A stretch of 64,000 nucleotides of DNA from Sedimentibacter sp. GTDB lineage: Bacteria > Bacillota > Clostridia > Tissierellales > Sedimentibacteraceae. This document shows positions 49,645 to 64,000 of this stretch, one piece after another. The translations under genes were made by a program, and so were the position numbers. Numbering within the stretch: the first letter of the stretch is position 1; every line of letters starts with the position of its first letter. A model generated the notes under the pieces. It worked only from the letters and a program-made list of their open reading frames with translations, ran no database searches and was not told the origin of the DNA. The DNA lies in assembly GCA_018436705.1 (NCBI GenBank), contig JAHDLA010000014.1:1-64000 (forward strand), given 5' to 3'.

Positions 49645-51263
49645 GGCCTCGGTCCTCCGTCTTGTCCGCCGGGGCCTCCTGCTGGACCACCTTGAACTCC
49701 TCCGGTTATTCCGGGCATGCCCATGTTCATTGTATTTGTTGTTGCATTGTTGGATTTAACAACTGTGTAAACTATTGTATCGCCTTCATTAAGTCCGCTT
49801 AGGATTTCAACTTGATCGTCTGTAGCAATGCCCATTTCTACAACAACATCACTGGTGTTTCCGGATGAATCCTTTATTGTTACTATGTAGTTATTTTTCT
49901 GTCTGTGAACTGCTTCAACAGGGATAATCAAAGTATCTTCGCTTATTTCAGAGACTATCTCAACATCTACGTTCATTCCTGACATAAGACTTTTTCTGTC
50001 ATCAAGGTTAACAGTTACGTCATATGTTGTAACTCCGTTGGAGGTGGTTCCCTCCAATGATATTTTAGTTACGGTTCCTGTGAATTCCTCATCGGGATAT
50101 GTATCGCTAGATATATTTGCTTTTTGTCCTACTGCTATTTTATTGATATCGAGTTCATCAACTGCTATTACAACTTTCATGTCTTCCATATCAGCAATAG
50201 TCATCAATGCTGTTGATCTGTCAACTACCTCATCTTCTGAAACACTTATATTAAGAATAGTGCCTGTCATGGGAGAATATATAGTGTCTCCTTCTAGCAT
50301 ATCTTCAATTTGCGATTTATATTTTTTTATTGAATTTTGTTTTTCTGATATTTCAAATTCTAAGTCGGTTCCTTCTATAACTGCTATTAAATCGCCCTTA
50401 TTCACATATTTTCCGTTTTCTGTTTCAACGGATTTTATTTCTCCGCTAACCTTTGAAATAATTGATTCTTCTTTTACTTCGTCTATTTCACCGTTTTGCA
50501 TTGCTTGGTATGTACCTTGATTGTTACTTACGGAAACCTGAGCTGTATCTCCTACACTGAAGCCTCCGGGGTTGGTTATTTGTACTGTTACAAGATATCC
50601 AAATGTTCCGCCTCCCATCTGTACAGGTGTGCTGTCCTTTTCTGTCACAATTCCTTCATGTGTTGAGAAATATTTTGTCATAAATACAGAGGCAGCATCT
50701 CCAATGGATATTTTTTCAAACTGTTCCTTAGAAAAGTATACATTGATATAAGAATTGTCTGTATCCTTAATTGTGGCTATAGATGAATTGCTGTTTATAT
50801 TATCACCGGCTTCAATATCTAAATTTGATATAATGCCTGAAATGGGAGCGTAAATATTTAAATCTCCTTGGTTTTCGTATAAATCATTCAATTCCCTTTG
50901 AAGCTTTTCAATACTTAATTGAATACTGTTGATTTCTGTGCTTGTGTCGTCGTCAGTGTCAGATTTTAATGAAATGAGAACCTGGTCTGGCTCAACCACA
51001 TCTCCTTCAGTAACATAGATAGTATCTACTGTTCCATCAATTTCAGATTTAATAGATCTTTTGTCAGTTGGAGTAACAGTTCCGCTTTCTGAAACAGACA
51101 TTGATATGTCTCCACTTGCAACAGTGTACTCAACTTCTGTTGTTGATGACTCATCCGCAGAGGTTGATGCAGCTTTTTGCTTGGCAGCTACAAATACAGC
51201 TACAGCGGCAGCGGCAATAATGATTAGTATAACTACTGTCAATCTTGCTTTTTTACTTTTCAT
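49641..51263 (-). CDS. membrane-fusion (MacA/HlyD-type) adaptor with duplicated lipoyl modules
   Basis: 540 residues, longer than the ~350-420 usual for MacA-like proteins. One N-terminal membrane anchor (LTVVILIIIAAAAVAVFVA). Two successive biotinyl-lipoyl/hairpin sets: first ~70-165 (IDGTVDTIYVTEGDVVEPDQ; YAPISGIISNLDIEAGD), second ~270-360 (VSGEIKSVETENGKYVNKGD; YSPMTGTILNISVSEDEVVD), then the beta-barrel and membrane-proximal domains. The C-terminus is a Gly/Pro-rich tail (PGITGGVQGGPAGGPGG). It links the ABC exporter to the envelope or delivers substrate. First gene of the operon. Confidence 0.87.
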   Translation of the reverse strand: MKSKKARLTVVILIIIAAAAVAVFVAAKQKAASTSADESSTTEVEYTVASGDISMSVSESGTVTPTDKRSIKSEIDGTVDTIYVTEGDVVEPDQVLISLKSDTDDDTSTEINSIQLSIEKLQRELNDLYENQGDLNIYAPISGIISNLDIEAGDNINSNSSIATIKDTDNSYINVYFSKEQFEKISIGDAASVFMTKYFSTHEGIVTEKDSTPVQMGGGTFGYLVTVQITNPGGFSVGDTAQVSVSNNQGTYQAMQNGEIDEVKEESIISKVSGEIKSVETENGKYVNKGDLIAVIEGTDLEFEISEKQNSIKKYKSQIEDMLEGDTIYSPMTGTILNISVSEDEVVDRSTALMTIADMEDMKVVIAVDELDINKIAVGQKANISSDTYPDEEFTGTVTKISLEGTTSNGVTTYDVTVNLDDRKSLMSGMNVDVEIVSEISEDTLIIPVEAVHRQKNNYIVTIKDSSGNTSDVVVEMGIATDDQVEILSGLNEGDTIVYTVVKSNNATTNTMNMGMPGITGGVQGGPAGGPGGQDGGPRP

Positions 51264-51360
51264 AAATTATTCCTTTCTATAAAAACTATGTTGTATAATT
51301 AATAGTAGAGTTGGAATGTGATAAAAATGTGTTGATATAAAATATATTCAAAAAATAAAA

Positions 51361-51409
51361 TCAGGACGTTTCCTGATATCCAGATAGGATATAAGAGGAA
51401 ACGTCCTGA
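51361..51409 (-). terminator. terminator after the CAP-domain gene
   Basis: TCAGGACGTTTCCT / AGGAAACGTCCTGA perfect 14-bp inverted repeat; minus-strand reading ends in a T-rich tail. Confidence 0.8.
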
Positions 51410-51419
51410 TGTGATTATT

Positions 51420-52250
51420 TTAGTTAGTGAACATTTGTGTCCAGTAAGATGTTCCGTTAGAATTTGTTACGTAGCCAACTCCTATTTTTGAGAAGTTTGA
51501 TGAAAGAATATTAGCTCTGTGTCCTGCTGAGTTCATCCATGCAGTTACAACGGCTTCAGGTGTTTTTTGCCCGGATGCTATATTTTCACCCCAAGCTGAC
51601 CAATTTATACCGAATTTTGTAAGCATATTGCCGGCACTTCCGTAAGTAGGTGACTGATGTGCAAAATAGTTATTGTCAGCCATATCTTGAGACTTAATTC
51701 TTGCAACATTAGAGATGGCAGCGTCTAATGTAAGTGAAGGAAGACCTTCTTTTTGTCTTTCTATGTTTACAAGTTCTACCACTTTTTGCTCGTATGCTGA
51801 AACAGATGTAACTGTGTTTTCTGTTTCGGCAGGAGCCTTATCTTCAACTGTAGTAGTTGTTTCAGCCGGTGCTTCAGTTTCTGTCGGAGTTTCAGCAGGC
51901 GTTTGACTTTCAATTGGGGTAGTAGATTCAGATTCGGAAGAATTTTCAACCGGCACTTCTGTTTCTGCCTGAGTATCGGCAGGTGTATCAGTTTCAGTAG
52001 CAGGTATAGTGCATTTAGCAGTTTTTCTGCTAAATAAATTGCTGCAGTCAATTGAATTTAAATCTACAGTTTTTCCGTTAATTGTAAACTTATATTTTGC
52101 ATTTGAGTTTGAAAATTTGCATGAATAATTTTTCAAATTACTAAAATTATACTTAGCTGTGCTTGTACAATTTCTTTCTGCGGCAAAGGCAGTTATTGGC
52201 GAAAGAGCCAAAGCTGCTGTCAATGTTAATGCTAATACTTTTTTGTTCAT
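51420..52250 (-). CDS. secreted CAP/SCP-domain protein
   Basis: 276 residues from the ATG at 52250 (AGGAGTG upstream; an ATG six codons earlier overlaps that site). Signal peptide KKVLALTLTAALALSPITAFA. Residues ~22-75 are a Cys/Asn/Lys-rich segment, ~80-150 a Pro-Thr-Glu low-complexity linker with repeated (E/A)TPxET units, and ~155-276 a CAP (SCP/PR-1) domain: VVELVNIERQKEGLPSLTLD, NNYFAHQSPTYG, WGENIASGQKTPEAVVTAWM, SAGHRANILS. Extracellular; CAP proteins of this YkwD type occur in clostridial envelopes and spores. Function unknown. Confidence 0.87.
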   Translation of the reverse strand: MNKKVLALTLTAALALSPITAFAAERNCTSTAKYNFSNLKNYSCKFSNSNAKYKFTINGKTVDLNSIDCSNLFSRKTAKCTIPATETDTPADTQAETEVPVENSSESESTTPIESQTPAETPTETEAPAETTTTVEDKAPAETENTVTSVSAYEQKVVELVNIERQKEGLPSLTLDAAISNVARIKSQDMADNNYFAHQSPTYGSAGNMLTKFGINWSAWGENIASGQKTPEAVVTAWMNSAGHRANILSSNFSKIGVGYVTNSNGTSYWTQMFTN

Positions 52251-52345
52251 AAATTCACTCCTGTTCATTCTTTAAATTTTTGGGAAGCGGTTAGCCCTAG
52301 CTTCTTTGGAAACTTTAGAACTTTAATGAGCTTTCCTTCATGAAA
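52251..52345 (-). other. structured leader of the CAP-domain gene, class not recognised
   Basis: Minus strand from a TATACT box (~52350) to the start contains two consecutive hairpins: GGAAA...TTTCC and GAAGC-TAGGGCTAACC-GCTTC. The second ends about 40 nt before the start codon. I could not assign it to a known riboswitch. Bases 52346-52576 beyond it are AT-rich without a gene that I can see. Confidence 0.35.
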
Positions 52346-52576
52346 AGAGTATATCACCGGAAAAACAAAAAAAAAACGCACAATAATTACTCTAATTGTA
52401 AAATGTGACAAAAATATTACAACATATTCAAGTTGAAAAAGATAATTACAAAAATATTACAGATAACTTGTATTTATACAAAAACACTTAAGAAAGTATT
52501 AATTAGTTTAGCATTATTTATATAAACTCCATAATATTAACATTGGGATAATATATGCCAAAACGAGAATAATTCC

Positions 52577-52605
52577 TTGACAATACAATAATTTTATATT
52601 ATTAT
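52577..52605 (+). promoter_or_regulatory. promoter of the tyrS T-box transcript
   Basis: TTGACA (52577-52582), 17-bp spacer, TATTAT (52600-52605), the same layout as the valS promoter. Confidence 0.8.
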
Positions 52606-52611
52606 TCCTTT

Positions 52612-52842
52612 ATTACATATTATCATAACTGTGAAAGAAGATAAGTAACATTTTGGTTACAAAAAAAGAGAGGGGATCGGACGGTGCAAGATTCTCAGTA
52701 CAAAATGTGAAATACACTTCTGGAGTTACCATGGGAGACCATGCGGTTATCCGACCGATAAATCGGAGAGAGGCAATATTATTGCGAATTAAGGTGGTAC
52801 CGCGGGTTATCTCGTCCTTTTGGATAGATAGCTCTTTTTTTA
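52612..52842 (+). promoter_or_regulatory. T-box leader, tyrosine-specific
   Basis: Specifier region GAAA-TAC-ACTTCTGGAGTT gives UAC (Tyr) at 52713-52715. Antiterminator core AGGTGGTACCGCGG at 52792-52805; terminator TATCT..TCC-TTTT-GGA..AGATA plus T-run to ~52842. Responds to uncharged tRNA-Tyr. Confidence 0.94.
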
Positions 52843-52886
52843 TTAACTGCAAAAATTAATTGAAAACTATTAACGGAGGTATTGTT

Positions 52887-54119
52887 ATGAAGCAGGGAAA
52901 TGTATTTGATGTATTGAAAGAGAGAGGATATATCGAGCAATGCACGCATGAGGAAGAAATTCGTGAGCTGCTGGGGAAGGAGTCCGTTACATTTTATATA
53001 GGATTTGATCCAACGGCGGACAGTCTTCACATTGGCCATTTTATACAGGTAATGGTTATGTCAATAATGCAGCAGTACGGGCATAGACCTATTGCACTCC
53101 TTGGCGGAGGAACTACAATGATAGGTGATCCTAGCGATAGAACAGGCATGCGATCTATAATGACGCAGGAAATAATTGCAAATAACGCTGAGAATTTTAA
53201 AAAGGTATTTCAAAAATTCTTAGATTTTTCAGATGATAAGGCAATAATGGACAATAACGCTGAATGGTTGCTGCCGCTTAATTTTTTAGATTTCATGAGG
53301 GAAGTCGGCGTCCATTTTTCTGTAAACCGAATGCTTGCTGCAGAGTGCTATAAAAATAGAATGGAGCAGGGACTTACATTTTTTGAATTTGGATACATGC
53401 TAATGCAGAGCTATGATTTTTATATGTTGAATCAGAAATACAACTGTAAAATGCAGCTTGGCGGAAATGACCAATGGTCAAATATCATTGGGGGAATAGA
53501 GCTTACAAGAAGAAAAGCTAATAAACAGGTTTATGGAATGACATTTGCCCTCTTAACAAACAGTGAAGGAAAGAAAATGGGCAAGACAGAAAAAGGAGCA
53601 TTGTGGCTTGACAGAGACAAAACATCACCATATGAGTTCTACCAATACTGGAGAAATATTGATGATGCAGATGTGGAAAAATGTCTGGCATTATTAACAT
53701 TCTTACCTATGGAAGAGGTAAGAAGACTGGGGCGCTTAGAAGGCTCAGAAATAAACAAAGCTAAGGAAGTACTTGCTTATGAAGTTACAAAGCTAATACA
53801 TTCTGAGGGAGATGCCATTAAAGCACAGGAAGCTGCAAGAGCATTATTCGGGGCAGGAAAAGATTCTGAAAACATGCCTACAACAGAGCTAACAAAAGTT
53901 GAATTAGGAAGCGGCATAGCCGTTATAGACCTTATGATTAAGGCTGGATTGATTAAGAGCAAGAGCGAAGGAAGAAGATTAATTGAACAGTCGGGAGTTT
54001 CTATAAATGACAATGTTGTAGATGGTGTAAGCTCAGCAGTTACTGAAAAAGATTTTGAAGAAGGAAAGCTGATTATTAAAAAAGGAAAGAAAGTTTACCA
54101 CAGAATTAAATTGGTATAA
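52887..54119 (+). CDS. tyrS: tyrosyl-tRNA synthetase
   Basis: 410 residues from ATG 52887 (CGGAGG upstream), preferred over the in-frame upstream ATG at 52860. Class I synthetase of the TyrRS bacterial type: [20 protein letters not shown] (HIGH), the tyrosine-binding [18 protein letters not shown] and [16 protein letters not shown] counterpart [14 protein letters not shown], and a C-terminal S4 RNA-binding domain ([17 protein letters not shown]). Regulated by the Tyr T-box. Confidence 0.96.
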
Positions 54120-54132
54120 ATTGATATTAAAT

Positions 54133-54187
54133 GGACTGCTTAATTGAGGTTAGTTATAACCCTTTATATAGCAGTCCGTTTTTTTTT
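54133..54187 (+). terminator. intrinsic terminator after tyrS
   Basis: GGACTGCT / AGCAGTCC stem with a 29-nt loop, followed by a run of nine Ts. Confidence 0.8.
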
Positions 54188-54353
54188 ATGGATTTTTAGC
54201 GACATTTTTTTCAAAATTGTCTAAATTTTTATTCCTATTTATATTGTAAAATCATTAATCTATTTTCATTTTTATTTAAAAATAAAAATTATTAATACTT
54301 TAAGGAAAATATGGTAAAATATTAATAAATTATTTGAGAATAGGAGTGATTAT

Positions 54354-55745
54354 GTGTTAAACAAGCAAGTTATTGAAGACACATTAAATGCTGCACTTTC
54401 AACAGGCGGAGATTTTGCGGAAGTCTTTGTTGAAGACAGAACCAACAATGGCATTTTAATGATTGGAGGCAAGGTTGAAAGTACCATGTCGGGAAGGGAC
54501 TATGGAGTAGGTATAAGAATTTTCAAAGGCTTCAACAGCGTTTATGCATATACGAACAAATCAGATCACGACTCACTGATAGAAACTGCAAAAAAGGCAG
54601 CTGCTGCTATTGAAGGAACCCAAAATATAGTAACAATGAATCTAGAAAAGTCAAAAGTTAATAATATCAATAATATAATAATAAATCCTGAAACAATTGG
54701 GAAAACAAAAAAAGTTGATATTATGAGAAGGGCATATGATACAGCTTTCAATTACAGCGATCTTGTAACTCAGGTAACAGTAAACTATACAGACTATACA
54801 CAAAACATAATGGTTGCAAATACAGAAGGGTTGTGGAGAGAGGACACTAGAGTTCGGTCCCGCTTGGGAATATCTTCTGTTGCGTCAAAAGATGGAGAAA
54901 TGCAGTCAGGATTTTTCGGGCCTGGAGCAAGCAAGGGTTATGAATTTTTTGAAAACTTAGACATTGGCCACTATGCAAAAGAAGCTTCAAGAATTGCCGT
55001 GACAATGGTCAATGCAAAGTACAGCCCCAGCGGAAAAATGCCGGTAATAATAGATAACGGATTTGGAGGAGTTATATTTCATGAAGCATGTGGTCATGGA
55101 CTGGAAGCGACCTCTGTAGCTAAGGGGCTTTCAGTTTTTTCTGGAAAAATAGGGCAGCAGATAGCATCTCCTTTAGTAACGGCAATAGATGATGGCTCAA
55201 TTCCCGGAGAATGGGGCTCATACAATATAGATGATGAAGGAACAAAATCTCAGAGGAATGTTCTTATAGAAAATGGGATACTCAAAAGCTATATGGTTGA
55301 CAGGTTGAACGCAAGAAGGATGAACATGGATATTACAGGATCATCAAGAAGACAGGGTTACAGGTACGCTCCTACTTCTAGAATGTCCAACACTTTTATA
55401 GATAACGGAAAGTCTACTCCAGAAGAAATTATTTCTAATACTGAGAGAGGCATTTATGCGAAGCACATGGGAGGAGGCTCAGTAAATCCAAGTACAGGAG
55501 AATTTAATTTTGCAGTAATGGAAGGCTATATTATTGAAAACGGTAAAATAAAAGATCCAGTAAGAGGTGCAACACTCATAGGGAAGGGAACTGATATACT
55601 AACTAAAATTGATATGGTAGGAAATAATCTTATGCAAAGCCAAGGAATGTGTGGCTCGGTAAGTGGAAGTATTCCTGCAAATGTAGGGCAGCCTATGATA
55701 AGAGTCTCTGAAATAACAGTAGGTGGAAGGGAAGGTGAAAAATAG
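54354..55745 (+). CDS. tldD: TldD-family metalloprotease subunit
   Basis: 463 residues, GTG start at 54354 after AGGAGTG. The zinc motif HExxxH is present in VIFHEACGHGLEAT, with the family stretches GGDFAEVFVEDR, GIRIFKGFNSVYAYTN and GSINP-like GGGSVNPSTGEFNFAV. TldD pairs with TldE/PmbA in a heterodimeric protease that processes peptides such as microcin precursors and CcdA. Here it overlaps pmbA by one base. No obvious modified-peptide gene lies beside it, so a general peptide-turnover role is as likely. Confidence 0.94.
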   Translation: MLNKQVIEDTLNAALSTGGDFAEVFVEDRTNNGILMIGGKVESTMSGRDYGVGIRIFKGFNSVYAYTNKSDHDSLIETAKKAAAAIEGTQNIVTMNLEKSKVNNINNIIINPETIGKTKKVDIMRRAYDTAFNYSDLVTQVTVNYTDYTQNIMVANTEGLWREDTRVRSRLGISSVASKDGEMQSGFFGPGASKGYEFFENLDIGHYAKEASRIAVTMVNAKYSPSGKMPVIIDNGFGGVIFHEACGHGLEATSVAKGLSVFSGKIGQQIASPLVTAIDDGSIPGEWGSYNIDDEGTKSQRNVLIENGILKSYMVDRLNARRMNMDITGSSRRQGYRYAPTSRMSNTFIDNGKSTPEEIISNTERGIYAKHMGGGSVNPSTGEFNFAVMEGYIIENGKIKDPVRGATLIGKGTDILTKIDMVGNNLMQSQGMCGSVSGSIPANVGQPMIRVSEITVGGREGEK

Positions 55746-57097
55746 TGGATATTAAACCATTGATAGAAAAAATATTTCAAAAAGGCAGGCAAAATGGACT
55801 GGGAGATATGGAAGTTTATTATTCCGCGGGAAACAGTCTTTCACTTAAAGTGTTTCAAAAAGATCTTGACGGTTACAGCCTTTCAGAAAGTGAAGGATTA
55901 TCTTTGAGAGGGGTATATAAAGGGAAAATGGGATATTCCTATACAGAAAAGGTAGACGAATCCTCAATTGATTTATTAATCAAGAACGTTATTGAAAATG
56001 CTACTGTAATTGATTCTGACGATGAAGAGTTCATTTATGAGGGATCAAAGGAATATAAAAGTGTAAATACATATAATCCAAGTCTGGCGAAAGTATCTGA
56101 AGTTGATAAGATAAGCTTTGTTAAAAATCTTGAAGAGGAAGCCTTCAAAATGGATAAGAGAATTAATTCTGTTGAAACATGTGTCTATGGAGATGGGTAC
56201 GGGGAAACGGTTATGTCTAATACAAAAGGGTTGTATCTGCATGATAAAAGTAATATTGCTTATACATACGTTGTTGTAGTCGCAAAGGATGGCAATGATA
56301 TAAAGACAGGCATGGCATACCGAACGGGGAATGATTTTTCCAAGTTCAATGCAAAGGAAATATCAGGTGAGGCAGTGAAGGAAGCCGTATCGCTTTTAGG
56401 AGCTAAAACAGTAAAATCGAATGATTATCCAATTATTATTAGAAACAGTGCAGCTGCTGACTTACTGGAAGCATTCACAGGAATATTTTCGGCAGAAAAC
56501 ATTCAGAAAGATCTTTCTCTTTTAAAAGGAAAACTAAACCAGCAAATAGGAAGCGAAAAATTTACATTGATTGATGATCCTTTTATGGAAGGTGGTCTTG
56601 CTTCAAGGTCTTTTGACGGTGAAGGTGTGGCGTGTAAGTATAAAAAAATAATTGATAAAGGAACTTTAAAAACCTACTTGCATAATTTAAAAACTTCGAA
56701 GAAAGATAAAATTGACACAACGGGAAATGCAAGCAAGGGATCATATAAGTCTTCAATAGGAATATCGCCTTCAAACTTTTATATTGAAAAGGGAGATAAA
56801 ACATTGGATGAACTGATTTCATCAATGGCATCCGGAATTATGATTACTGAACTTCAGGGATTGCATTCCGGTTTGAATTCAATATCAGGAGATTTTTCTC
56901 TGGCGGCCTTGGGGTATGAAATAAAGAACGGAAAAGTTTTGGGACCTGTTGAACAGATAACAGTTGCAGGCAACTTTTTCGAGATGATTAAAAACATTGA
57001 AGAGGTTGGAGCAGATTTGAAGTTTGGTTTGCCGGGAGAAGCGTACATAGGCTCTCCATCCCTTAAAATAAAAAAGCTTGCAATAGCAGGAAAATAG
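55745..57097 (+). CDS. pmbA: PmbA/TldE-family protease subunit
   Basis: 450 residues, GTG start at 55745 overlapping the tldD stop. TldE-type partner that lacks the HExxxH motif, as normal for this subunit. Family regions: DMEVYYSAGNSLSLKVFQKD, GLSLRGVYKGKMGYSYTEK, and C-terminal LQGLHSGLNSISGDFSLAA. Forms a heterodimer with TldD. Confidence 0.93.
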   Translation: MDIKPLIEKIFQKGRQNGLGDMEVYYSAGNSLSLKVFQKDLDGYSLSESEGLSLRGVYKGKMGYSYTEKVDESSIDLLIKNVIENATVIDSDDEEFIYEGSKEYKSVNTYNPSLAKVSEVDKISFVKNLEEEAFKMDKRINSVETCVYGDGYGETVMSNTKGLYLHDKSNIAYTYVVVVAKDGNDIKTGMAYRTGNDFSKFNAKEISGEAVKEAVSLLGAKTVKSNDYPIIIRNSAAADLLEAFTGIFSAENIQKDLSLLKGKLNQQIGSEKFTLIDDPFMEGGLASRSFDGEGVACKYKKIIDKGTLKTYLHNLKTSKKDKIDTTGNASKGSYKSSIGISPSNFYIEKGDKTLDELISSMASGIMITELQGLHSGLNSISGDFSLAALGYEIKNGKVLGPVEQITVAGNFFEMIKNIEEVGADLKFGLPGEAYIGSPSLKIKKLAIAGK

Positions 57098-57123
57098 CAG
57101 GATAACAAAAAATGAACAAAGTA

Positions 57124-57151
57124 AAAAGACAATCCAATCGGATTGTCTTTT
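57124..57151. terminator. bidirectional terminator between pmbA and DUF378 gene
   Basis: AAAAGACAATCC-AATC-GGATTGTCTTTT perfect hairpin. Confidence 0.85.
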
Positions 57152-57163
57152 GAATTGGTAAAA

Positions 57164-57361
57164 TTAATCTATTCTTTCGCGTTCATTGAATAATAAGGTT
57201 ATACAGTATAAGCCTGCCAAACCCACAAGTCCATATACCAATCGGCTGAATATTGCAGTTTGGCCTCCAAATATAGCAGCTACAAGGTCGAACTGAAACA
57301 ACGCTATAAGACCCCAGTTTAAAGCTCCTATAATTACTAATACCAATGCAAATTTATCCAT
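57164..57361 (-). CDS. DUF378 family small membrane protein
   Basis: 65 residues with two hydrophobic helices: DKFALVLVIIGALNWGLIAL and LVYGLVGLAGLYCITLLF. The NWGL element is the DUF378 signature. RBS AGGAGG. Function of the family is unknown. Confidence 0.88.
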   Translation of the reverse strand: MDKFALVLVIIGALNWGLIALFQFDLVAAIFGGQTAIFSRLVYGLVGLAGLYCITLLFNERERID

Positions 57362-57516
57362 AGGTCAGAATCCTCCTTAAATTAATATATTTCTAGTGTT
57401 TCAATAAATTTCTATATTATGCACAAAATCAAAAATTAAAAGGAGTGTATTCAATTAACACATATATTTTTTGTGAATATAATAGCTTAAAATGTTATTT
57501 CATTAAGGAGGTTATC

Positions 57517-57771
57517 ATGGAAAATTTCGTACCTGAAGATATTGAAACAAATGAAGTAAAATCTCAGTGTGACTGTGACAGAATCGAAGGAAGAAGACAG
57601 GCACCGCCGTGCATAAAAGATGAAGTACTGGACTGTGCTTCAAATACAAATTTGTTATGGTTCTTTTTATTGTTAGTGGCAATTGTATGCCAAAGCAATT
57701 GTAACATAGATTTAAATACTCTGCTTTGGTTCTTCCTGCTTCTAGTTGTTATTTACAACAATTATTATTAA
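57517..57771 (+). CDS. small membrane protein with a duplicated LLWFFLLLV segment
   Basis: 84 residues from ATG 57517 (AAGGAGGTTATC upstream); the longer frame from 57445 has no such site. The acidic N-terminal half has several cysteines (QCDCDR, PPCIKDEVLDC). The C-terminal half has two near-identical hydrophobic segments, NLLWFFLLLVAIVCQSNC and TLLWFFLLLVVIYNNYY. I do not recognise the family. The Cys-rich acidic head with a double hairpin tail recalls small spore-coat or forespore membrane proteins (weak inference). Confidence 0.7.
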   Translation: MENFVPEDIETNEVKSQCDCDRIEGRRQAPPCIKDEVLDCASNTNLLWFFLLLVAIVCQSNCNIDLNTLLWFFLLLVVIYNNYY

Positions 57772-57778
57772 TTAGTTT

Positions 57779-57813
57779 AAAAAGTCTGCCTAACTTTATA
57801 CGGCAGACTTTTT
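57779..57813. terminator. bidirectional terminator overlapping the end of the minus-strand cluster
   Basis: AAAAAGTCTGCC / GGCAGACTTTTT perfect 12-bp hairpin. The last codons and stop (57796) of the minus-strand gene lie inside it. Confidence 0.85.
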
Positions 57814-58077
57814 ATCATCATCTAGCAATTCAATTTCAAGCTTATCAAAATCAACTTCATCAATGAAATCGTGAGGATAGAATGTTACATACTTAAATTT
57901 TGCAAATTCCAAGTCATGTTTTTTAAGCCATACAGGTACACTTAAATCAAGTTTCTGACATATTTCTTTTAGGCATTTATCCTTTTTTTCTGACATAGCT
58001 ACATCTTCTTTATTTTTAACTACAATTGAATCAACCAAACGATTTTTATTTATTATTTTTGCCCATAATTTATACAT
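57796..58077 (-). CDS. hypothetical 93-residue protein downstream of the selenoprotein genes
   Basis: 93 residues, ATG at 58077 with AAGGTGAG just upstream. Lys/Asp-rich and soluble, with no membrane segment; two cysteines in DKCLKEICQKLDL. I do not recognise the family. It begins 12 bp after the stop of the first HesB-like gene and ends in a terminator, so it is very probably the last gene of that operon. An interaction with the HesB-like proteins is a reasonable guess from position only. Confidence 0.7.
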   Translation of the reverse strand: MYKLWAKIINKNRLVDSIVVKNKEDVAMSEKKDKCLKEICQKLDLSVPVWLKKHDLEFAKFKYVTFYPHDFIDEVDFDKLEIELLDDDKKSAV

Positions 58078-58089
58078 GTCTCACCTTAT

Positions 58090-58359
58090 TTAATACTGCG
58101 GTGTTATAATAAAATTCTTGAACAAGAATCCACCGTAATTAATTTTTGCACCTCTTATTTTTTTCCTTAAATCATTAGGAACTATAATATTTATTCCGTC
58201 TACGTTGTATACATTATCACTTTTCGATTGTTTCGCCGAAACAATTTTATATGTGATTCCGCTTCATCCCACAGGGTAGCTTACAAGTTTTATAGGAATA
58301 TTTTTTTCTTGCATTAAAGATAGCTTTTCTTTTGCCTTATCTGTAATACTTATATTCAT
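58090..58359 (-). CDS. HesB-like selenoprotein (in-frame UGA at codon 32)
   Basis: 90 codons from the ATG at 58359 (AAGGAG with 5-nt spacing) to TAA at 58092-58090, interrupted only by TGA at 58266-58264 (codon 32). Read through as selenocysteine, the local sequence is YPVG-U-SGITYKIVS, where U occupies the place of the first ligand Cys of IscA/HesB proteins. The rest (DNVYNVDGINIIVPNDLR, GAKINYGGFLF) fits the HesB fold. The C-terminal CxC pair of IscA is missing. A hairpin starts 18 nt after the UGA. HesB-like selenoproteins are a described group; the role may be Fe-S or redox chemistry. The neighbour upstream is a paralogue. Confidence 0.82.
58227..58266 (-). promoter_or_regulatory. bacterial SECIS element of the downstream HesB-like gene
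   Basis: UGA followed after 18 nt by ATTGTTTC-GGC-GAAACAAT (58245-58227): eight base pairs with a three-base loop starting GG. The loop lies 26 nt after the UGA, inside the usual bSECIS range, and the loop G is the SelB contact position. Confidence 0.78.
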
Positions 58360-58368
58360 GACCGCTCC

Positions 58369-58644
58369 TTAGCTGAATTTTGGAATGACTTCAAATCCTT
58401 TTTTAAATATCCCGCTTGCGTAATTAATTTCTGCGCCTTTTATTGCACCATCAAGTTCATCTGATACAATTAAATCTATTCCGTCAACATCATAGATTTG
58501 GTCTTTATCTGATTGTTTCTCCGAAACAATGCCTATCTCGGCACCGCATCAGGAATAGCCTGTAATTTTTAATTTAATTGGCTGTTTATTATTTTTTAGC
58601 TCAGTCATTTTTTCTCTGGCTTTATCTGTTAATTTAAAATTCAT
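58369..58644 (-). CDS. HesB-like selenoprotein, second copy (in-frame UGA at codon 32)
   Basis: 92 codons from the ATG at 58644 (GGAGG upstream) to TAA at 58371-58369, with TGA at 58551-58549 as the only internal stop, also codon 32. Read through: KITGYS-U-CGAEIGIVSEKQ, then DQIYDVDGIDLIVSDEL and GAEINYASGIFKKGFEVIP. Unlike the other copy, a Cys directly follows the U, giving a possible selenenylsulfide pair. No C-terminal CxC. Its stop codon overlaps the ribosome binding site of the next HesB-like gene, so the two are co-translated. Same predicted SECIS at the same offset. Confidence 0.83.
58512..58551 (-). promoter_or_regulatory. bacterial SECIS element of the upstream HesB-like gene
   Basis: UGA followed after 18 nt by ATTGTTTC-GGA-GAAACAAT (58530-58512). 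It differs from the other copy only in the last loop base, while the codons between UGA and hairpin differ strongly, which points to selection on the RNA hairpin. Confidence 0.78.
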
Positions 58645-58703
58645 AATTTCCTCCACATCTACATTTATTTATTTAACTTTATAATTTATCTGGTAACAGT
58701 TCA

Positions 58704-58716
58704 GTGACTATGTCAC
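58704..58716. promoter_or_regulatory. palindrome upstream of the selenoprotein genes
   Basis: GTGAC-TAT-GTCAC perfect inverted repeat 60 bp before the first HesB-like start and 47 bp after the ABC ATPase stop. Possible operator; no T-run follows, so it is not a good terminator. Confidence 0.35.
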
Positions 58717-58762
58717 ACTCATTAGTTTATCTCATAATGATTTTTTTATGTTGTATATGATA

Positions 58763-59446
58763 TTATAATCTTGCCAAATTTTCAAGTAAATGAAAAATAT
58801 TTTCATGTTCTGTTTTTTCATCAAGAATTATTTTTTTAATAATTTCCACGGGTCTGCCTCTAAGCACATAAATATAGTCAGATAAATCAATTGCTTCGTT
58901 AATATCATGGGTTATAAACAGAACTGTTCTTTTGTTTTCATTCCATAAATTTCTAAAGATGTGAATGATATCATTTTTCATTTTTAAATCAAGTCCTTTA
59001 AAAGGTTCATCCAAAATTAAAAAGTCAGATGGGTATGCAAAAGCTCTGGCCAACGCTACTCTTTGGCACATTCCACCGCTTAGTTCACTTGGCCTTTGCA
59101 TTTCATATCCCTTTAGTCCTACCATGTCAATGTAGTTATGTATAATATTTTTCCTTTTTTCATCAGGATAAATATCTTTGAGGACAAAATCTATGTTGTC
59201 GTATACACTGTACCAAGGAAGAAGCCTGTGTTCTTGAAAAACATAGGAATACACTGTGTTTTCAATCCCGTTTACCATTCCGCTGTCAATATTTGTAAGG
59301 CGTGCAGCAACATTTGCTATTGTTGTTTTGCCTACGCCTGACGGGCCAAAAAGGCAGGTTATTTTATTTTCTTCGAAGGATAAGTTAAAATCCTTAAGAA
59401 TTTCAATATCTCCATATTTTTTACAAACATTTTTAAGATTGATCAT
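58763..59446 (-). CDS. NitT/TauT-family ABC transporter ATP-binding protein
   Basis: 227 residues: Walker A CLFGPSGVGKTTIANVAARL, Q-loop YVFQEHRLLPWYSVYDNIDF (the RLLPW wording is typical of SsuB/TauB/ThiZ-type ATPases), signature ELSGGMCQRVALARAFA, Walker B FLILDEPFKGLDL, switch His ITHDINEAID. Its start overlaps the permease end. Last ABC gene; 118 bp without an obvious terminator separate it from the selenoprotein genes. Confidence 0.92.
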   Translation of the reverse strand: MINLKNVCKKYGDIEILKDFNLSFEENKITCLFGPSGVGKTTIANVAARLTNIDSGMVNGIENTVYSYVFQEHRLLPWYSVYDNIDFVLKDIYPDEKRKNIIHNYIDMVGLKGYEMQRPSELSGGMCQRVALARAFAYPSDFLILDEPFKGLDLKMKNDIIHIFRNLWNENKRTVLFITHDINEAIDLSDYIYVLRGRPVEIIKKIILDEKTEHENIFHLLENLARL

Positions 59447-60188
59447 ATTTCCTCAAATTAAATAATTTTTTTAATATTGCTTCAAAAGTAATGCTTAATA
59501 TTATTATGATAATTGTCCATGCAAACAAATCAGGCATTTCAAGATAAACCTTGGAGTCGTAAAGAAAGCTTCCGATAGAGTACTTCGGAAGACTGAGCAC
59601 TTCAGCTGCCGATGTTACCTTCCAGCCTATTCCCAGAGCTGAAATCATAGCCGCTCTAATATAAGGAAAGGCAGAAAAAAGGTAAACGGAACAAATAATA
59701 CGCAACTTCCTAACTTTATATAACCGGCACATATCCAAGAGGTTTGAGTCGGCTGATTTTATTCCGGCTACCGTGTTCGTCCATATGATCGGAAAGCACA
59801 TTAAGAATGCTACAAATATGGGGACATTGGTGTCGCTGAACCACATAATTGCTATTATTATTATGGACATGACCGGAATTGTACGTATTGTTGATATAAA
59901 GGGATTGAATAAATTATGTATTGATTTGTTAATTCCGCATAAATAACCAAGCGGTATACCTGCTGCACAAGACAGAGCAAATCCTGCGAGAGTGCGGTAT
60001 GTACTGTAAAATATTGTTATGTAGGTGTCTTTATATTTCAAAAGATTTACTACGGCTTTAAAAGCTGAAAAAGGAGAAGGCAGGTAAATTTCCTGCCCTA
60101 TAGCCAAGGATAGTATCTCCCACATAGAAACCCAAAATAATACTATAAATATTTTTTGCTTACTGCTGTTCAAAATAAAATGCTTCAT
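59433..60188 (-). CDS. NitT/TauT-family ABC transporter permease
   Basis: 251 residues with about six helices and a BPD_transp_1 domain: LAGFALSCAAGIPLGYLCG, STIRTIPVMSIIIIAIMWFS, and the EAA-type loop near RLYKVRKLRIICSVYLFSA. Family transporters carry nitrate, sulfonates, thiamine precursors or other small organics. Overlaps the binding-protein gene by 29 nt and the ATPase gene by 14 nt. Confidence 0.9.
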   Translation of the reverse strand: MKHFILNSSKQKIFIVLFWVSMWEILSLAIGQEIYLPSPFSAFKAVVNLLKYKDTYITIFYSTYRTLAGFALSCAAGIPLGYLCGINKSIHNLFNPFISTIRTIPVMSIIIIAIMWFSDTNVPIFVAFLMCFPIIWTNTVAGIKSADSNLLDMCRLYKVRKLRIICSVYLFSAFPYIRAAMISALGIGWKVTSAAEVLSLPKYSIGSFLYDSKVYLEMPDLFAWTIIIIILSITFEAILKKLFNLRKYDQS

Positions 60189-61197
60189 CAGGTAAAATTC
60201 CTCCTACGGAAGCAGGATTAGAATCAAACAAAATCTTGTAGAAACCATCCAGACTTGATTTTATATCCTTTGCCGGGATAAAGGTTATTCCGCAATTTGG
60301 GATTGCTTTTTCAACCAGAGCTGCGCTTGGCATTATTTCATTTTTTTCAACTAAAACAGAAGCATCCTTTGGATTTTCATTAACCCAGTTGACAGATTCC
60401 TTGTATTGACTTAAAAATTCTTTAACAAAATCCGCATTGTTTTCTGCAAATTCTTTATTAACTACAACACAGCCAGTATACAATTCGCTGGAATCCAAAG
60501 ATGCCTTTTTCCACTCTTCATTTAAATCAAGCAGAATTTTAACATTATTATTCTTCATTGAAACCTGAGTTACAAACGGCTGCGGAAGAAGTGCGACTTT
60601 TGTGTCTTCAGCTATGACAGATTGTGCCAGAGTTGCATGATCTGTTGAATAATCCAGCTCAACTTTTTCATCAAGTTCATTTTGCTTAAGAATATAGTTC
60701 ATGGCAAAATCAGGAGTAGAACCTTTGGCACTCATACCGAGAGTTTTACCTGAAAGTTCCTCAATTGAAGAAATCTCTTCCGATCCTACAATGTATAGAT
60801 TTCCCACTGTGTTTACAGCCATAATTTGCACTTTGCCTTCTGTTTTATTATACAAGACAGATGCGAGATTTATAGGCAGAGAGGATATTTGCACGTCACC
60901 TTTTATGATTTTTGCTGTAAGTGCATCTGGTGCGCTTTCTGCTATATATTCTACGTTATATTTTTCGCTGTTTAAAGCTTTTCCATCAATTAGTTTTATC
61001 ATACCTATTGATGTAGGTCCTTTCAGGCCGGCTATCATTATATTTACAGGTTCGGAATTATGCTGGCTGTCCGGTTGGCTTTCTTCAGTTTCTTGAGATT
61101 CCGCAGGTTCAGAAGCCTGAGGCTGTGTATTATTTGCACATCCTGCCATTGCGGCAATAATTAAGACAATTGATAACAATAAACTTACCTTTTTCAT
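60160..61197 (-). CDS. NMT1/TauA-like ABC substrate-binding lipoprotein
   Basis: 345 residues from the ATG at 61197 (GGAGGAAAC upstream). Lipobox AAMAGCANN. Then an acidic linker and a two-lobed fold: NIMIAGLKGPTSIGMIKLID, AKIIKGDVQISSLPINLASV, LSGKTLGMSAKGSTPDFAMN, ALLPQPFVTQVSMKN. The GPTS/G-M segment at the N-lobe resembles the ligand site of the SsuA/ThiY-type group. The ligand cannot be read; the neighbouring regulator and selenoproteins suggest a selenium/sulfur- or metal-related compound (speculative). Confidence 0.87.
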   Translation of the reverse strand: MKKVSLLLSIVLIIAAMAGCANNTQPQASEPAESQETEESQPDSQHNSEPVNIMIAGLKGPTSIGMIKLIDGKALNSEKYNVEYIAESAPDALTAKIIKGDVQISSLPINLASVLYNKTEGKVQIMAVNTVGNLYIVGSEEISSIEELSGKTLGMSAKGSTPDFAMNYILKQNELDEKVELDYSTDHATLAQSVIAEDTKVALLPQPFVTQVSMKNNNVKILLDLNEEWKKASLDSSELYTGCVVVNKEFAENNADFVKEFLSQYKESVNWVNENPKDASVLVEKNEIMPSAALVEKAIPNCGITFIPAKDIKSSLDGFYKILFDSNPASVGGILPDEAFYFEQQ

Positions 61198-61220
61198 AGT
61201 TTCCTCCAAATAAATTTTTA

Positions 61221-61466
61221 TTATTTTTTTGACAATGCGCTTTTTACGCTTATGTTTTTTATTTTTCCTAGCTTTCCTGTCAAAGCACCAATTTCATCGG
61301 TGGTACCGTCTACAATAAGTGATATTACGTTTACACCTCTTTCTTTATACGGAATGCCCATCCTTCCTACAATAACGAAAGCAAATTGATGTAAGATTTC
61401 ATTTACCTCAAAGATATGCGTTAAATCCTCGATCACAATTCCTACTACACCTATTCTTTTATCCAT
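61221..61466 (-). CDS. TM1266-family (iron-only hydrogenase system) putative regulator
   Basis: 81 residues from the ATG at 61466 (AAGGAGG upstream). ACT/NikR-C-like small fold: RIGVVGIVIEDLTHIFEVNE, FVIVGRMGIPYKERGVNVIS, VDGTTDEIGALTGKLGKI. This family often accompanies [FeFe]-hydrogenase maturation genes and is suspected to be regulatory. Here no hydrogenase gene is near; instead it leads an ABC transporter operon, 23 bp before the binding-protein gene. Confidence 0.85.
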   Translation of the reverse strand: MDKRIGVVGIVIEDLTHIFEVNEILHQFAFVIVGRMGIPYKERGVNVISLIVDGTTDEIGALTGKLGKIKNISVKSALSKK

Positions 61467-61560
61467 AAGACCTCCTTGAAATAAAAAATTCCTTGCAGAC
61501 ACAAGGAATAAAAGCCATAATTAGTATGTACTTATGCTTTTTCCTTGCTCTCAGACAACC
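61467..61560 (-). promoter_or_regulatory. leader with mutually exclusive hairpins (attenuator) before the TM1266-like gene
   Basis: Minus strand carries CAAGGAA (61547-61541), TTCCTTG (61508-61502) and CAAGGAA (61495-61489). The middle copy can pair with the first in a long hairpin extended by AAAGC/GGCTTT and ATAA/TTAT, or with the third in a hairpin followed by a T-run. This is the standard antiterminator/terminator arrangement. Further upstream, GCTC...GAGAGC (61566-61544 region) could form the sensing element. Ligand or trigger unknown. Confidence 0.65.
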
Positions 61561-61589
61561 TTGAGCTTAGATTTATTTAGCTGAATATA

Positions 61590-61778
61590 TTAAATCAAAT
61601 CATCCTTAGAAATGTTAAAATATTGAGCAAAGCTTGCCAAATAGAATTCTGATGGCTGTTCTTCGCCACTTTCATATAGCTTTATTCTTTCTCTCGGCAC
61701 ATTAAGTGCAACACTCAGTTCTTGTTTGGTCATTTCCTTATCTTTACGGATTTGTCTCAACTTTTTACCTAATGTCAT
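61590..61778 (-). CDS. XRE-family transcriptional regulator
   Basis: 62 residues, a single Cro/C1-type helix-turn-helix: LRQIRKDKEMTKQELSVALN, VPRERIKLYESGEEQPSEFY. No effector domain. Its start at 61778 follows AGAGGTGG. It is the first gene of the minus-strand cluster, 123 bp before the TM1266-like gene, with an attenuator between. An inverted repeat over its own promoter suggests autoregulation. Confidence 0.88.
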   Translation of the reverse strand: MTLGKKLRQIRKDKEMTKQELSVALNVPRERIKLYESGEEQPSEFYLASFAQYFNISKDDLI

Positions 61779-61795
61779 TATGCCACCTCTTTGTA

Positions 61796-61835
61796 TTTGA
61801 TATATATATTATATCAAAATATGATAATTTTACAA
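61796..61835 (-). promoter_or_regulatory. XRE gene promoter with overlapping operator
   Basis: Minus strand TTGTAA (61835-61830), 16-bp spacer, TATAAT (61813-61808). An inverted repeat TTTGATATA-N5-TATATCAAA (61796-61818) covers the -10 box and start site, as expected for a repressor site. Confidence 0.6.
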
Positions 61836-61946
61836 ATATAATTTAATTATATAGCAATGTAAAAAATATCAATATATGAATGGCCTTTTTTATATGATAT
61901 ATAAATATTATAGAAAACTGTATAAATAGGTACTCAGGGATGAAAG

Positions 61947-61983
61947 AAAGCTTTGTTATATGTTAATAAACAAAGCTTTTTTT
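61947..61983 (+). terminator. stand-alone terminator-like hairpin
   Basis: AAAGCTTTGTT / AACAAAGCTTT stem followed by eight Ts on the plus strand. No plus-strand gene ends nearby, so it may close a short RNA starting near 61918, or act on leaky transcription towards the GNAT gene. Confidence 0.6.
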
Positions 61984-61993
61984 ATTGTATGTA

Positions 61994-62023
61994 TTGATTG
62001 ACTTTATATTGAAATGATATAAT
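61994..62023 (+). promoter_or_regulatory. promoter of the GNAT gene
   Basis: TTGATT (61994-61999), 18-bp spacer, TATAAT (62018-62023). Confidence 0.55.
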
Positions 62024-62049
62024 ATAAAAAACAAGTAGGGAGTGGCACT

Positions 62050-62484
62050 ATGATCTCAACAAGATGGTTTCAAGGAAAAAACAATATAAAAGATGCTGTA
62101 AGCTTAAGGCAAGAGATATTTGCCGGAGAATTAAAGTTGATCAATTATCCGGTACATGATATGTATGATGAATTTGCTTTTAATGTAGTCATATATGATG
62201 ATGTTCCTGCGGGCACAGGAAGGCTGCTGTTTAAAGAAGGCAGATATCATATAGACAATGTGTGCGTTGTGAAAAAATTCAGAGGGTTGCATTATGGTGA
62301 TTTGATTGTGAGGATGCTTGTCAGAAGAGCCGTAAACATGGGAGCGGATGAAACATATGCAGAAGTAGGAGAAGACTGTGTTAAATTGTTTAAAAATATA
62401 GGGTTTGAGACTGTTCAATCAGATTGTAGTAAATTTTTGATGGTAAAACGCGGAGATGTTGGAGGAAGCTGCTGTAAGCATTAA
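62050..62484 (+). CDS. GNAT-family N-acetyltransferase
   Basis: 144 residues. Acetyl-CoA-binding motif A region: NVCVVKKFRGLHYGDLIVRM, preceded by AGTGRLLFKEGRYHID and followed by VKLFKNIGFETVQSD. ElaA/YjcF-like size and layout. A Cys-rich end (GGSCCKH) is unusual. Target unknown. Monocistronic with its own promoter. Confidence 0.85.
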   Translation: MISTRWFQGKNNIKDAVSLRQEIFAGELKLINYPVHDMYDEFAFNVVIYDDVPAGTGRLLFKEGRYHIDNVCVVKKFRGLHYGDLIVRMLVRRAVNMGADETYAEVGEDCVKLFKNIGFETVQSDCSKFLMVKRGDVGGSCCKH

Positions 62485-62529
62485 TTATCAGATTTCACTG
62501 CTGTTGAAAAAATTAAAATGATAAACAGC

Positions 62530-62558
62530 TGGACAAAATAAATGGTGCAGTATATAAT
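62530..62558 (+). promoter_or_regulatory. promoter upstream of the tRNA-like element and gltX
   Basis: TGGACA (62530-62535), 17-bp spacer, TATAAT (62553-62558). Transcription would start near 62565, about 13 nt before the tRNA-like fold. Confidence 0.65.
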
Positions 62559-62577
62559 TATTTCATTAAATGCAATT

Positions 62578-62642
62578 ACTCATAGTTCAATGAACGCCAC
62601 CCTCTCAAGGTGGAAAGGGGTTCGAATTCCCAATGAGTACCA
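62578..62642 (+). ncRNA. tRNA-Glu-like element (anticodon CUC) in the gltX leader
   Basis: 65 nt that can form a cloverleaf: acceptor ACTCAT/ATGAGT (6 bp) ending A-CCA; D-like hairpin GTTC-AAT-GAAC with only a 3-nt loop; anticodon arm CCACC-CTCTCAA-GGTGG with CUC (62604-62606), the Glu GAG anticodon; T-like arm GGGG-TTCGAAT-TCCC with a G-U closing pair. Compared with normal tRNAs it lacks the D-loop GG, the 8-9 linker and a 5-bp T stem, so it is not an ordinary tRNA gene. A decayed tRNA is the alternative to a regulatory mimic. Confidence 0.6.
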
Positions 62643-62654
62643 TTAGATTTGAGG

Positions 62655-62679
62655 GACGGTTATATTTACCGTCTTTTTT
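62655..62679 (+). terminator. intrinsic terminator between tRNA-like element and gltX
   Basis: GACGGT-TATATTT-ACCGTC hairpin plus T-run, 35 bp before the gltX start. I see no good separate promoter between it and gltX, so read-through may be how gltX is expressed. Confidence 0.75.
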
Positions 62680-62713
62680 GTTCAGTACATAAGTACAATA
62701 AACGGAGGAAAAA

Positions 62714-64000
62714 ATGGATTATAAAAAGCTGGCTGAAATTTTGTTTCCAGATATACACGAAACTGTTGAATATTATGAAAACGAAGTTTTTCCAAAGAGG
62801 AACATACCTGAAGGTGCAAAGGTAACAAGGCTTGCTCCCAGTCCTACAGGTTTTATTCATTTGGGAAATCTGTACGGAGCATTTGTTGATGAAAGACTGG
62901 CTCACCAAAGTGGCGGAGCATTCATGTTGCGTATAGAAGATACGGATGAAAAGCGTAAAGTTGAAGGATCTGTTGAAATTATTATTTCATCCCTTAAATA
63001 TTTCGGGTTGAATTTTGACGAAGGTGCATTGCTGGATGGTGAGAAAGGAAACTATGGGCCATACTATCAAAGCAACAGAGGTAAAATTTATCAGTGTATT
63101 GCAAAGCATTTGGTTGAGCAGGGAAGAGCATACCCATGCTTCTGCACAGAGGAAGAACTGGAAGAAGTAAGAAAACGACAAACGGATGAAAATGTCAATA
63201 CAGGTTATTACGGTAAATGGGCAAAGGACAGGAGCCTGACTTTGGAAGAGGTACAGGAACACTTAGACAATAATGAAGAGTTTGTTGTAAGATTCAAGTC
63301 CATGGGTGCAGAAGAAGGAACTTTTGATATAGTTGACGCTATTAGAGGAAGTTTAACGATACACGAAAATTATCAAGATATTGTAATATTAAAAACAAAT
63401 GGTATACCTACATATCATTTTGCACATGTTGTGGATGATCACCTAATGAGAATTACTCACGTTGTAAGAGGTGAAGAGTGGCTTTCAACGCTTCCTATTC
63501 ATTATGAAATTTTTAATACTTTGGGATGGGAAACACCGACATACTGCCATACAGCACATTTGATGAAAATTGATAACGGGGCGAAAAGAAAACTTTCAAA
63601 GAGAAAAGATCCTGAGCTTGGACTGGGATTTTATATGGAATTGGGGTACCATCCGGCTGCAGTAAGAGAATATCTGCTGACAATTTTAAATTCTAATTAT
63701 GAAGAGTGGAGAATGGCGAATCCGGATACTCCATCTGAAGAATTTGAATTTACCCTTGAAAAAATGAGCAATTCCGGAGCCCTGTTTGATTTGGATAAAT
63801 TGAACAACATAAGTAAGGATGTAATGCTTAAAATATCTGAAGAAGAAATTTATGAGTTCTTGTTGAACTGGTCAAAAGAACATAAGACGGAAATTTCAGA
63901 AGCTCTTGAAAATAATAGAGAATCGGTAATCAAGCTGCTTTCAGTAGGAAGAATCGGCAAGAAGCCAAGAAAAGACCTTATGTATTGTAGGCAGATATTT
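62714..64000 (+). CDS. gltX: glutamyl-tRNA synthetase, 3' end cut by window
   Basis: 429 codons from ATG 62714 (CGGAGG upstream), open to the last base of the window. Class I synthetase: RLAPSPTGFIHLGNLYGAFV (HIGH counterpart), MLRIEDTDEKRKVEGSVEI, the DIVDAIRGSL and PTYHFAHVVDDHLMRITHV active-site parts, KMSKS counterpart KRKLSKRKD. An N-terminal extension of ~40 residues (ILFPDIHETVEYYENEVF) before the catalytic core is unlike standard GltX and marks a clostridial variant clade. It may charge tRNA-Glu only or also tRNA-Gln; this cannot be told here. Confidence 0.94.
   Translation, partial: MDYKKLAEILFPDIHETVEYYENEVFPKRNIPEGAKVTRLAPSPTGFIHLGNLYGAFVDERLAHQSGGAFMLRIEDTDEKRKVEGSVEIIISSLKYFGLNFDEGALLDGEKGNYGPYYQSNRGKIYQCIAKHLVEQGRAYPCFCTEEELEEVRKRQTDENVNTGYYGKWAKDRSLTLEEVQEHLDNNEEFVVRFKSMGAEEGTFDIVDAIRGSLTIHENYQDIVILKTNGIPTYHFAHVVDDHLMRITHVVRGEEWLSTLPIHYEIFNTLGWETPTYCHTAHLMKIDNGAKRKLSKRKDPELGLGFYMELGYHPAAVREYLLTILNSNYEEWRMANPDTPSEEFEFTLEKMSNSGALFDLDKLNNISKDVMLKISEEEIYEFLLNWSKEHKTEISEALENNRESVIKLLSVGRIGKKPRKDLMYCRQIF

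Follow-up and report, generated by a model that had tools for sequence, protein, structure and literature searches.

The locus raises two questions: do two adjacent small genes of Sedimentibacter sp., each interrupted by an in-frame UGA, encode selenoproteins, and what might these proteins do? We analyzed a window of 64,000 nucleotides, in which both genes lie on the reverse strand. Gene A (58369-58644; 91 codons) has its UGA at codon 32 (TGA at 58549-58551), followed by a codon for cysteine (Cys33). Gene B (58090-58359; 89 codons, ending in TAA) also has its UGA at codon 32 (58264-58266), and it encodes no cysteine at all. In each gene, an 8-bp stem-loop of the SECIS type lies exactly 18 nt after the UGA, at 58512-58530 with the loop GGA in gene A and at 58227-58245 with the loop GGC in gene B. 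The hairpin common to both genes is AUUGUUUC-GGC/GGA-GAAACAAU: in gene B, the TGA is followed by the 18 nt AGCGGAATCACATATAAA and then by ATTGTTTC GGC GAAACAAT, and in gene A, the TGA is followed by another 18 nt and then by ATTGTTTC GGA GAAACAAT. The stretch between UGA and hairpin encodes SGITYK in B and CGAEIG in A. The coordinates agree with a preliminary description of this DNA, which had reported the UGA at codon 32 of both genes, the same hairpin at the same distance with GGC or GGA as its loop, and different codons in between. When we allowed up to two mismatches, the hairpin motif matched the window at the A and B sites only (4 strand matches), as compared to 0.02 matches expected by chance, and none of 100 shuffled sequences reached 4 matches.

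Just 9 nt separate the TAA of gene A from the ATG of gene B, and 12 nt separate the end of gene B from the start of P93 (57796-58077, reverse strand), which encodes a 93-amino-acid protein that scores below threshold for every Pfam and NCBIfam model. Shine-Dalgarno-like sequences precede both A (GGAGG) and B (AGGAG). Given the short gaps, the three genes are probably on one message and translated together.

The genome contains the machinery to insert selenocysteine (Sec): SelB (398 bits; cutoff, 242), SelA (620 bits; cutoff, 268), and tRNA-Sec (68 bits; cutoff, 47) were all found, with their genes on one contig (C14). We searched for homologs of the A/B pair in 60 related genomes, most of which are draft assemblies. 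This gave 17 full-length A genes, 16 of them from Sedimentibacter (including that of the window) and one from a sister genus (G025). TGA is at the same place in all 17 of these, and 14 of 16 B genes have it too. Of the 25 Sedimentibacter genomes searched, many of which are drafts, 12 have the two genes side by side and intact, and both copies have kept their hairpins. The preliminary description had named frameshifts elsewhere in the pair, or a hairpin kept in just one copy, as signs against selenoproteins, and neither check speaks against this reading.

The hairpin is conserved at the level of nucleotides and not just of amino acids. In gene A, the hairpin codons GTT, TCG, GAG, and AAA are each present in 17/17 sequences and CAA in 16/17; in gene B, ATT, TCG, and CAA are each present in 14/14 of the UGA-bearing sequences. 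At other sites of gene A, these residues have different codons: TCG encodes the serine at +29 in just 1 of 17 sequences, and GAG encodes glutamate in 2/16 sequences at -17 and in 0/13 at +22. The preliminary description had suggested comparing the hairpin with the flanking codons, and we made this comparison: summed over pairs of sequences, the six codons of the hairpin have a pS of just 0.04 in A and 0.11 in B, as compared to 0.54 (A) and 0.80 (B) upstream of the UGA and 0.63 (A) and 0.74 (B) downstream of the hairpin. In the 6-codon spacer between UGA and hairpin, pS is 0.41 (A) and 0.77 (B). Past the hairpin, pN/pS is about 0.35, which implies that the region behind the UGA is translated and under selection. 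In the 14 UGA-bearing B genes, 98 of 98 helix cells can pair, including two compensatory changes, and pairing drops to 42-70% if the partner is slid by 1-3 columns. Evidence from covariation comes from gene B only, as the hairpin of gene A is nearly invariant.

The minimum-energy fold of the gene A stretch from RNAfold is not the 8-bp hairpin but a different, larger structure that takes in the UGA, so the case for the hairpin in gene A is one of conservation rather than of folding energy. In gene A, codons 0 to +6 (58531-58551, reverse strand) include an alanine codon at +3 that is GCC in 17/17 sequences and a glycine codon at +6 that is GGC in 15/17, and RNAfold pairs these two inside the larger structure. 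The hairpin does not account for the invariant GCC. Possibly, the larger fold is a second or alternative SECIS conformation that is specific to gene A.

The strongest evidence for decoding as Sec comes, at the level of sequence, from the two B genes that lack the UGA. In L036 (genome G016), the codon is TGC, for cysteine, and the hairpin is destroyed; in L032 (genome G013), the codon is TTA, for leucine, and a mismatch in the stem breaks the hairpin. In G016, which is 97% complete, neither SelA nor SelB scored over the cutoff. SelB was found in each of the 7 other genomes that we tested for it, 6 of them from Sedimentibacter and one from the sister genus, and SelA was found in nearly all of the genomes tested for SelA; G020, which is 87% complete, has no SelA match and no A or B gene. 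The stem-loops also have the features expected of a bacterial SECIS (PMC1088965): each lies just past the UGA and has a small apical loop that contains G. As is usual for selenoproteins, the conserved UGA aligns with cysteine in homologs without Sec, both in the Cys form of G016 and in the cysteine column of IscA, and SelA, SelB, and tRNA-Sec are present. Together, the comparisons across relatives indicate that both UGA codons are almost certainly decoded as Sec by means of the stem-loop 18 nt downstream. An Rfam scan of positions 50000-64000 gave a T-box and chance matches only, with no SECIS family. A scan of viral contigs matched the hairpin motif in 9 of them, but a 17-mer near-palindrome will turn up by chance in a collection of that size.

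Given that these are almost certainly Sec-containing proteins, to what family do they belong? Curated models detect the kinship (E values of 1e-4 to 1e-10), yet A and B fall under every cutoff. For TIGR01911 (HesB_rel_seleno; cutoff, 66.35 bits), A scored 21.2 bits and no match was listed for B, while two ordinary relatives, L040 and L041, scored 68.5 and 66.2 bits. For NF038090 (IscA_HesB_Se; cutoff, 85 bits), A and B scored 39.9 and 29.6 bits. The gathering score of Fe-S_biosyn (PF01521; 26.3 bits) was just missed, with 23.2 bits for A and 22.7 bits for B (E values of about 1e-4). In a phylogenetic tree, A and B form one clade (support, 100/95), apart from 25 other relatives, and the B group is itself well supported (100/99). 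We therefore place A and B in a diverged clade that is sister to the HesB-like selenoproteins, and do not count them as members of TIGR01911 or NF038090. Within this clade, they are tandem paralogs that arose by the tandem duplication of a gene for a HesB-like selenoprotein with the IscA fold.

This origin changes how the two SECIS elements should be read. In the ordinary HesB-like family, the hairpin has another sequence (GCTC-TGGAT-GAGC), but its codon offset is the same. Because hairpins at that offset are found throughout the family, the identical offset in A and B was inherited, and the near-identical sequence of their hairpins is due to the tandem duplication and subsequent conservation. 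An independent origin of the two elements can be rejected on the same grounds, as A and B are one clade and the offset is family-wide. The preliminary description had taken the two genes as independent copies whose UGA and hairpin argue strongly against sequencing errors or pseudogenes. The offset is real, and selection and pairing confirm that the genes are not errors or pseudogenes, but the copies are a tandem duplication, and their shared offset is not independent evidence in that sense. Nevertheless, the offset has been upheld separately in A and B across a large divergence (43% identity).

AlphaFold models of A and B have pLDDT values of 88-89, and their top structural matches are IscA (1r94 and 1s98) of E. 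coli, SufA (2d2a), and AQ_1857 (1nwb), with a TM score to 1r94 of up to 0.79. We are highly confident in the IscA/SufA fold that these models predict for both products. In a profile alignment, Sec32 falls on the conserved cysteine of IscA (Cys35 of E. coli IscA). The C-terminal ligands of IscA are Cys99 and Cys101. Of the three ligand positions (Cys35, Cys99, and Cys101), only the first is occupied in A and B, as Sec.

The inventory of Sec and cysteine is sparse. The only such residues of Sedimentibacter A are Sec32 and Cys33, and UGA-bearing B has Sec32 and no cysteine; in most relatives, B lacks histidine as well. The other Sec-bearing relatives have a cysteine in addition to Sec: it is at or next to the C terminus in 22 of 24 and elsewhere in the other 2. 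Both A and B stop short of the place where ordinary members of the HesB-like family have their C-terminal cysteine, so they cannot be classical A-type carriers with three cysteine ligands. The residue after Sec is invariably cysteine in the 16 full-length A proteins of Sedimentibacter (it is serine in A of G025), and it may be serine, alanine, or asparagine in B. The preliminary description had contrasted serine with cysteine at this position and suggested a division of labor. Only the cysteine is upheld as a conserved feature: a division of labor is plausible if it rests on Cys33 of A, but not if it rests on the serine of B.

Two other HesB-like selenoproteins without the C-terminal cysteine, L088 and L090, come from another family of the same order. 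They have UCGA or URGA at the Sec site, and the tree does not group them with A and B. The C-terminal tail may have been lost more than once, judging from these sequences. We treat L088, which has Sec in a UCGA motif and no C-terminal cysteine, as probable convergence; it is on a long branch, and its placement is unsure.

The two genes lie within a conserved cluster on the reverse strand. The first gene of this cluster encodes a putative regulator of the TM1266 family (61221-61502). It is followed by an ABC substrate-binding lipoprotein of the SsuA/NMT1 type (60160-61197), which is distantly similar to SaoX and whose nearest relative by sequence in the PDB is 3hn0; by the permease (59433-60188); and by an ATPase that resembles those of the NitT/TauT and Sao systems (58763-59446), which is upstream of A. 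The order TM1266-SBP-permease-ATPase-A-B-P93 is found in most relatives, with A and/or B present and often with P93. P93 is in the operon of most but not all relatives, is 57-77% identical within the genus, and is also present in G028, from another family of the order. Two single cases are hints of Fe-S or sulfur chemistry: in S. saalensis, a gene for a NifU/IscU-type scaffold lies shortly behind the pair, and in G025 (L067), mnmA is directly upstream of A. A ThiF/MoeB-looking gene accompanies the scaffold gene behind A-B-P93 in S. saalensis (L063, 9587-11412).

Several other features of the neighborhood were apparent. A gene pair similar to TldD/TldE (54354-57097, forward strand) is a conserved neighbor of the operon in most Sedimentibacter genomes. 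Near the operon, a GNAT-family protein (62050-62484, forward strand) has a conserved cysteine tail: in most relatives from Sedimentibacter, its C terminus reads GDVGG(S/H/G)CC. A T-box leader that scores over its gathering score (52622-52822, forward strand) lies upstream of a gene similar to tyrosyl-tRNA synthetases.

What might the two proteins do? We favor, with moderate confidence, the view that the locus has two coupled genes with UGA as Sec, whose products are selenolate ligand or carrier proteins with the IscA fold, tied to the ABC importer. In this proposal, Sec32 would hold a soft metal, a fragment of an Fe-S cluster, or an atom of sulfur or selenium on the A-type fold and would hand it on. 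In A, Sec32 and Cys33 could also form a reversible selenenyl-sulfide, while B, with its lone Sec, could provide no more than one ligand or one nucleophile, probably as a homo-oligomer or together with a partner. The cargo might be something that is imported by the NitT/TauT-type transporter. Two parts of this proposal seem evenly balanced to us. The first is the role as a ligand for a metal, a cluster, or a chalcogen, which is suggested by the fold together with the residue inventory. The second, a functional link to the transporter, might go either way: the constant position behind the ABC importer in Sedimentibacter suggests that A and B handle its cargo, but the link cannot be universal, as G017, which has neither A nor B, still has P93 next to the ABC genes, A of G025 is located elsewhere and not in the ABC cluster, and other families of the order have the same type of ABC unit without the Sec pair. 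The most specific version, in which B is an IscA-fold carrier with the selenolate as its sole such ligand and A and B are dedicated to carrying the transporter's substrate by selenium ligation, seems improbable; if true, it would be a natural selenolate-coordinated metal or Fe-S center on an A-type scaffold.

We considered four alternatives to this proposal. First, A and B might be small selenol oxidoreductases, or relays of electrons or sulfur, that use the IscA fold without carrying a metal. A would cycle between the selenenyl-sulfide of Sec32 and Cys33 and the reduced form, and B would be a reductant with one Sec. The vicinal Sec and Cys in 16/16 full-length Sedimentibacter A proteins, the lone Sec of B, and the loss of the C-terminal ligand of classical carriers would all fit, and a redox function is presumed for most uncharacterized selenoproteins (PMC13188914). 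However, the fold is that of metal or cluster carriers and is not thioredoxin-like, and the cluster has no gene for a redox partner. We view a redox role as a credible but minority explanation.

Second, the transporter might import or sense a metal-organic compound that the Sec proteins bind, as in the selenocysteine-assisted organometallic (SAO) system. The subunits of the transporter do resemble SaoA, SaoP, and SaoX in NCBIfam (142, 99, and 27 bits), and the Sec-Cys pair of A is reminiscent of the CU motifs found in SAO proteins (PMC13188914). However, these scores are far under the cutoffs (360, 295, and 300 bits, respectively), which leads us to reject membership in SAO itself, and the same ABC unit is found in other families without neighboring Sec proteins. 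An SAO-like role in handling soft metals or organometals is therefore decidedly improbable.

Third, the preliminary description had raised the idea of a heteromer. If A and B were obligate partners in a pseudosymmetric, IscA-like dimer or tetramer, then Sec32 and Cys33 of A and Sec32 of B might hold one center. The genes are adjacent, translationally coupled, and together in 12 genomes, and ISCA1 and ISCA2 do form heterocomplexes (PMC5437272). But obligate partners should disappear together, and B occurs without A in G005, G015, and G016 (the Cys form), while A occurs without B in G009, G011, G024, and the sister genus G025. The operon is contiguous across the place of the missing gene in G005, G015, G016, and G024; some of the other absences could be gaps in draft assemblies. 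Since some species have A alone or B alone, neither copy needs the other, and the gene content of these genomes leaves an obligate heteromer disfavored, with a low probability; occasional interaction is still compatible with the data. As a separate observation, G009 has two A-type copies (L069, 6861-7133, and L074, 3460-3714), both with the UGA and the hairpin.

Finally, there might be no recoding, and the genes might be pseudogenes, artifacts of sequencing, or plain peptides of 31 codons whose hairpin is fortuitous. This idea has virtually no probability and is already refuted at the sequence level: although an in-frame stop alone usually signals a pseudogene, and G010 has just a decayed remnant of A with TAG and TAA (L035), which is a loss and not the rule, it does not fit with purifying selection past the UGA, frozen hairpin codons, compensatory pairs, or the joint loss of TGA, hairpin, and SelA/SelB.

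Returning to our proposal of selenolate ligand or carrier proteins, HesB-like selenoproteins have been known for about 20 years without a function, and Sedimentibacter offers a natural simplification: one copy has only Sec and the other has only a Sec-Cys pair, both lack the C-terminal cysteine, and they are beside a conserved transporter. One species with Cys instead of Sec, and without SelA or SelB, adds a contrast. With these simplified copies and the Cys-form species, the role of selenium on this fold is directly testable. Annotation pipelines probably miss both genes, which are interrupted by UGA and are under every curated cutoff that we used, so that A and B, almost certainly with Sec, are a distinct variant within a known family of selenoproteins that is easy to overlook. 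We found no literature on Sedimentibacter selenoproteins or on tandem HesB selenoproteins; papers on SAO or on the neighborhoods of selenoproteins may mention the pair. What appears to be new is the combination of features: no C-terminal cysteine, a Sec-Cys pair in A, Sec as the sole chalcogen in B, scores under the cutoffs, and a position behind a conserved ABC transporter.

Among known systems, A and B are most usefully compared with four. Like the A-type carriers IscA, SufA, and ErpA, they have the predicted fold and an occupied first ligand position; unlike these carriers, that position has Sec instead of Cys, and both of the C-terminal cysteine ligands are missing. DsrR of Allochromatium vinosum (PDB 2k4z), which is among the structural matches, is an A-type member that also lacks the usual cysteine ligands. 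Unlike A and B, it has no Sec and is encoded in a gene cluster for sulfur oxidation. The SAO system resembles this locus in having selenoproteins beside a NitT/TauT-like ABC transporter, but no SAO family reaches its cutoff here, and the transporter components here lack Sec, while those of SAO can themselves carry it (PMC13188914). The closest comparison is with the HesB-like selenoproteins of TIGR01911. These also have the IscA/HesB fold, Sec in a UxG motif at the conserved cysteine position of HesB, and a SECIS hairpin that lies inside the coding sequence, the same number of codons from the UGA. They differ in that their motif is UxGP (PMC13188914), mostly UGGP or UAGP among the relatives, instead of UCGA (A) or USGI (B), and in that their hairpin is GCTC-TGGAT-GAGC instead of TTGTTTC-GGN-GAAACAA. 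A and B also lack the C-terminal cysteine, have a shorter segment after helix 1, form a tandem pair, and are far below the curated cutoffs. The nearest characterized relative of A and B is the HesB-like protein of Methanococcus maripaludis, which was seen by 75Se labeling and whose mutant is viable and still fixes nitrogen (PMC11097638).
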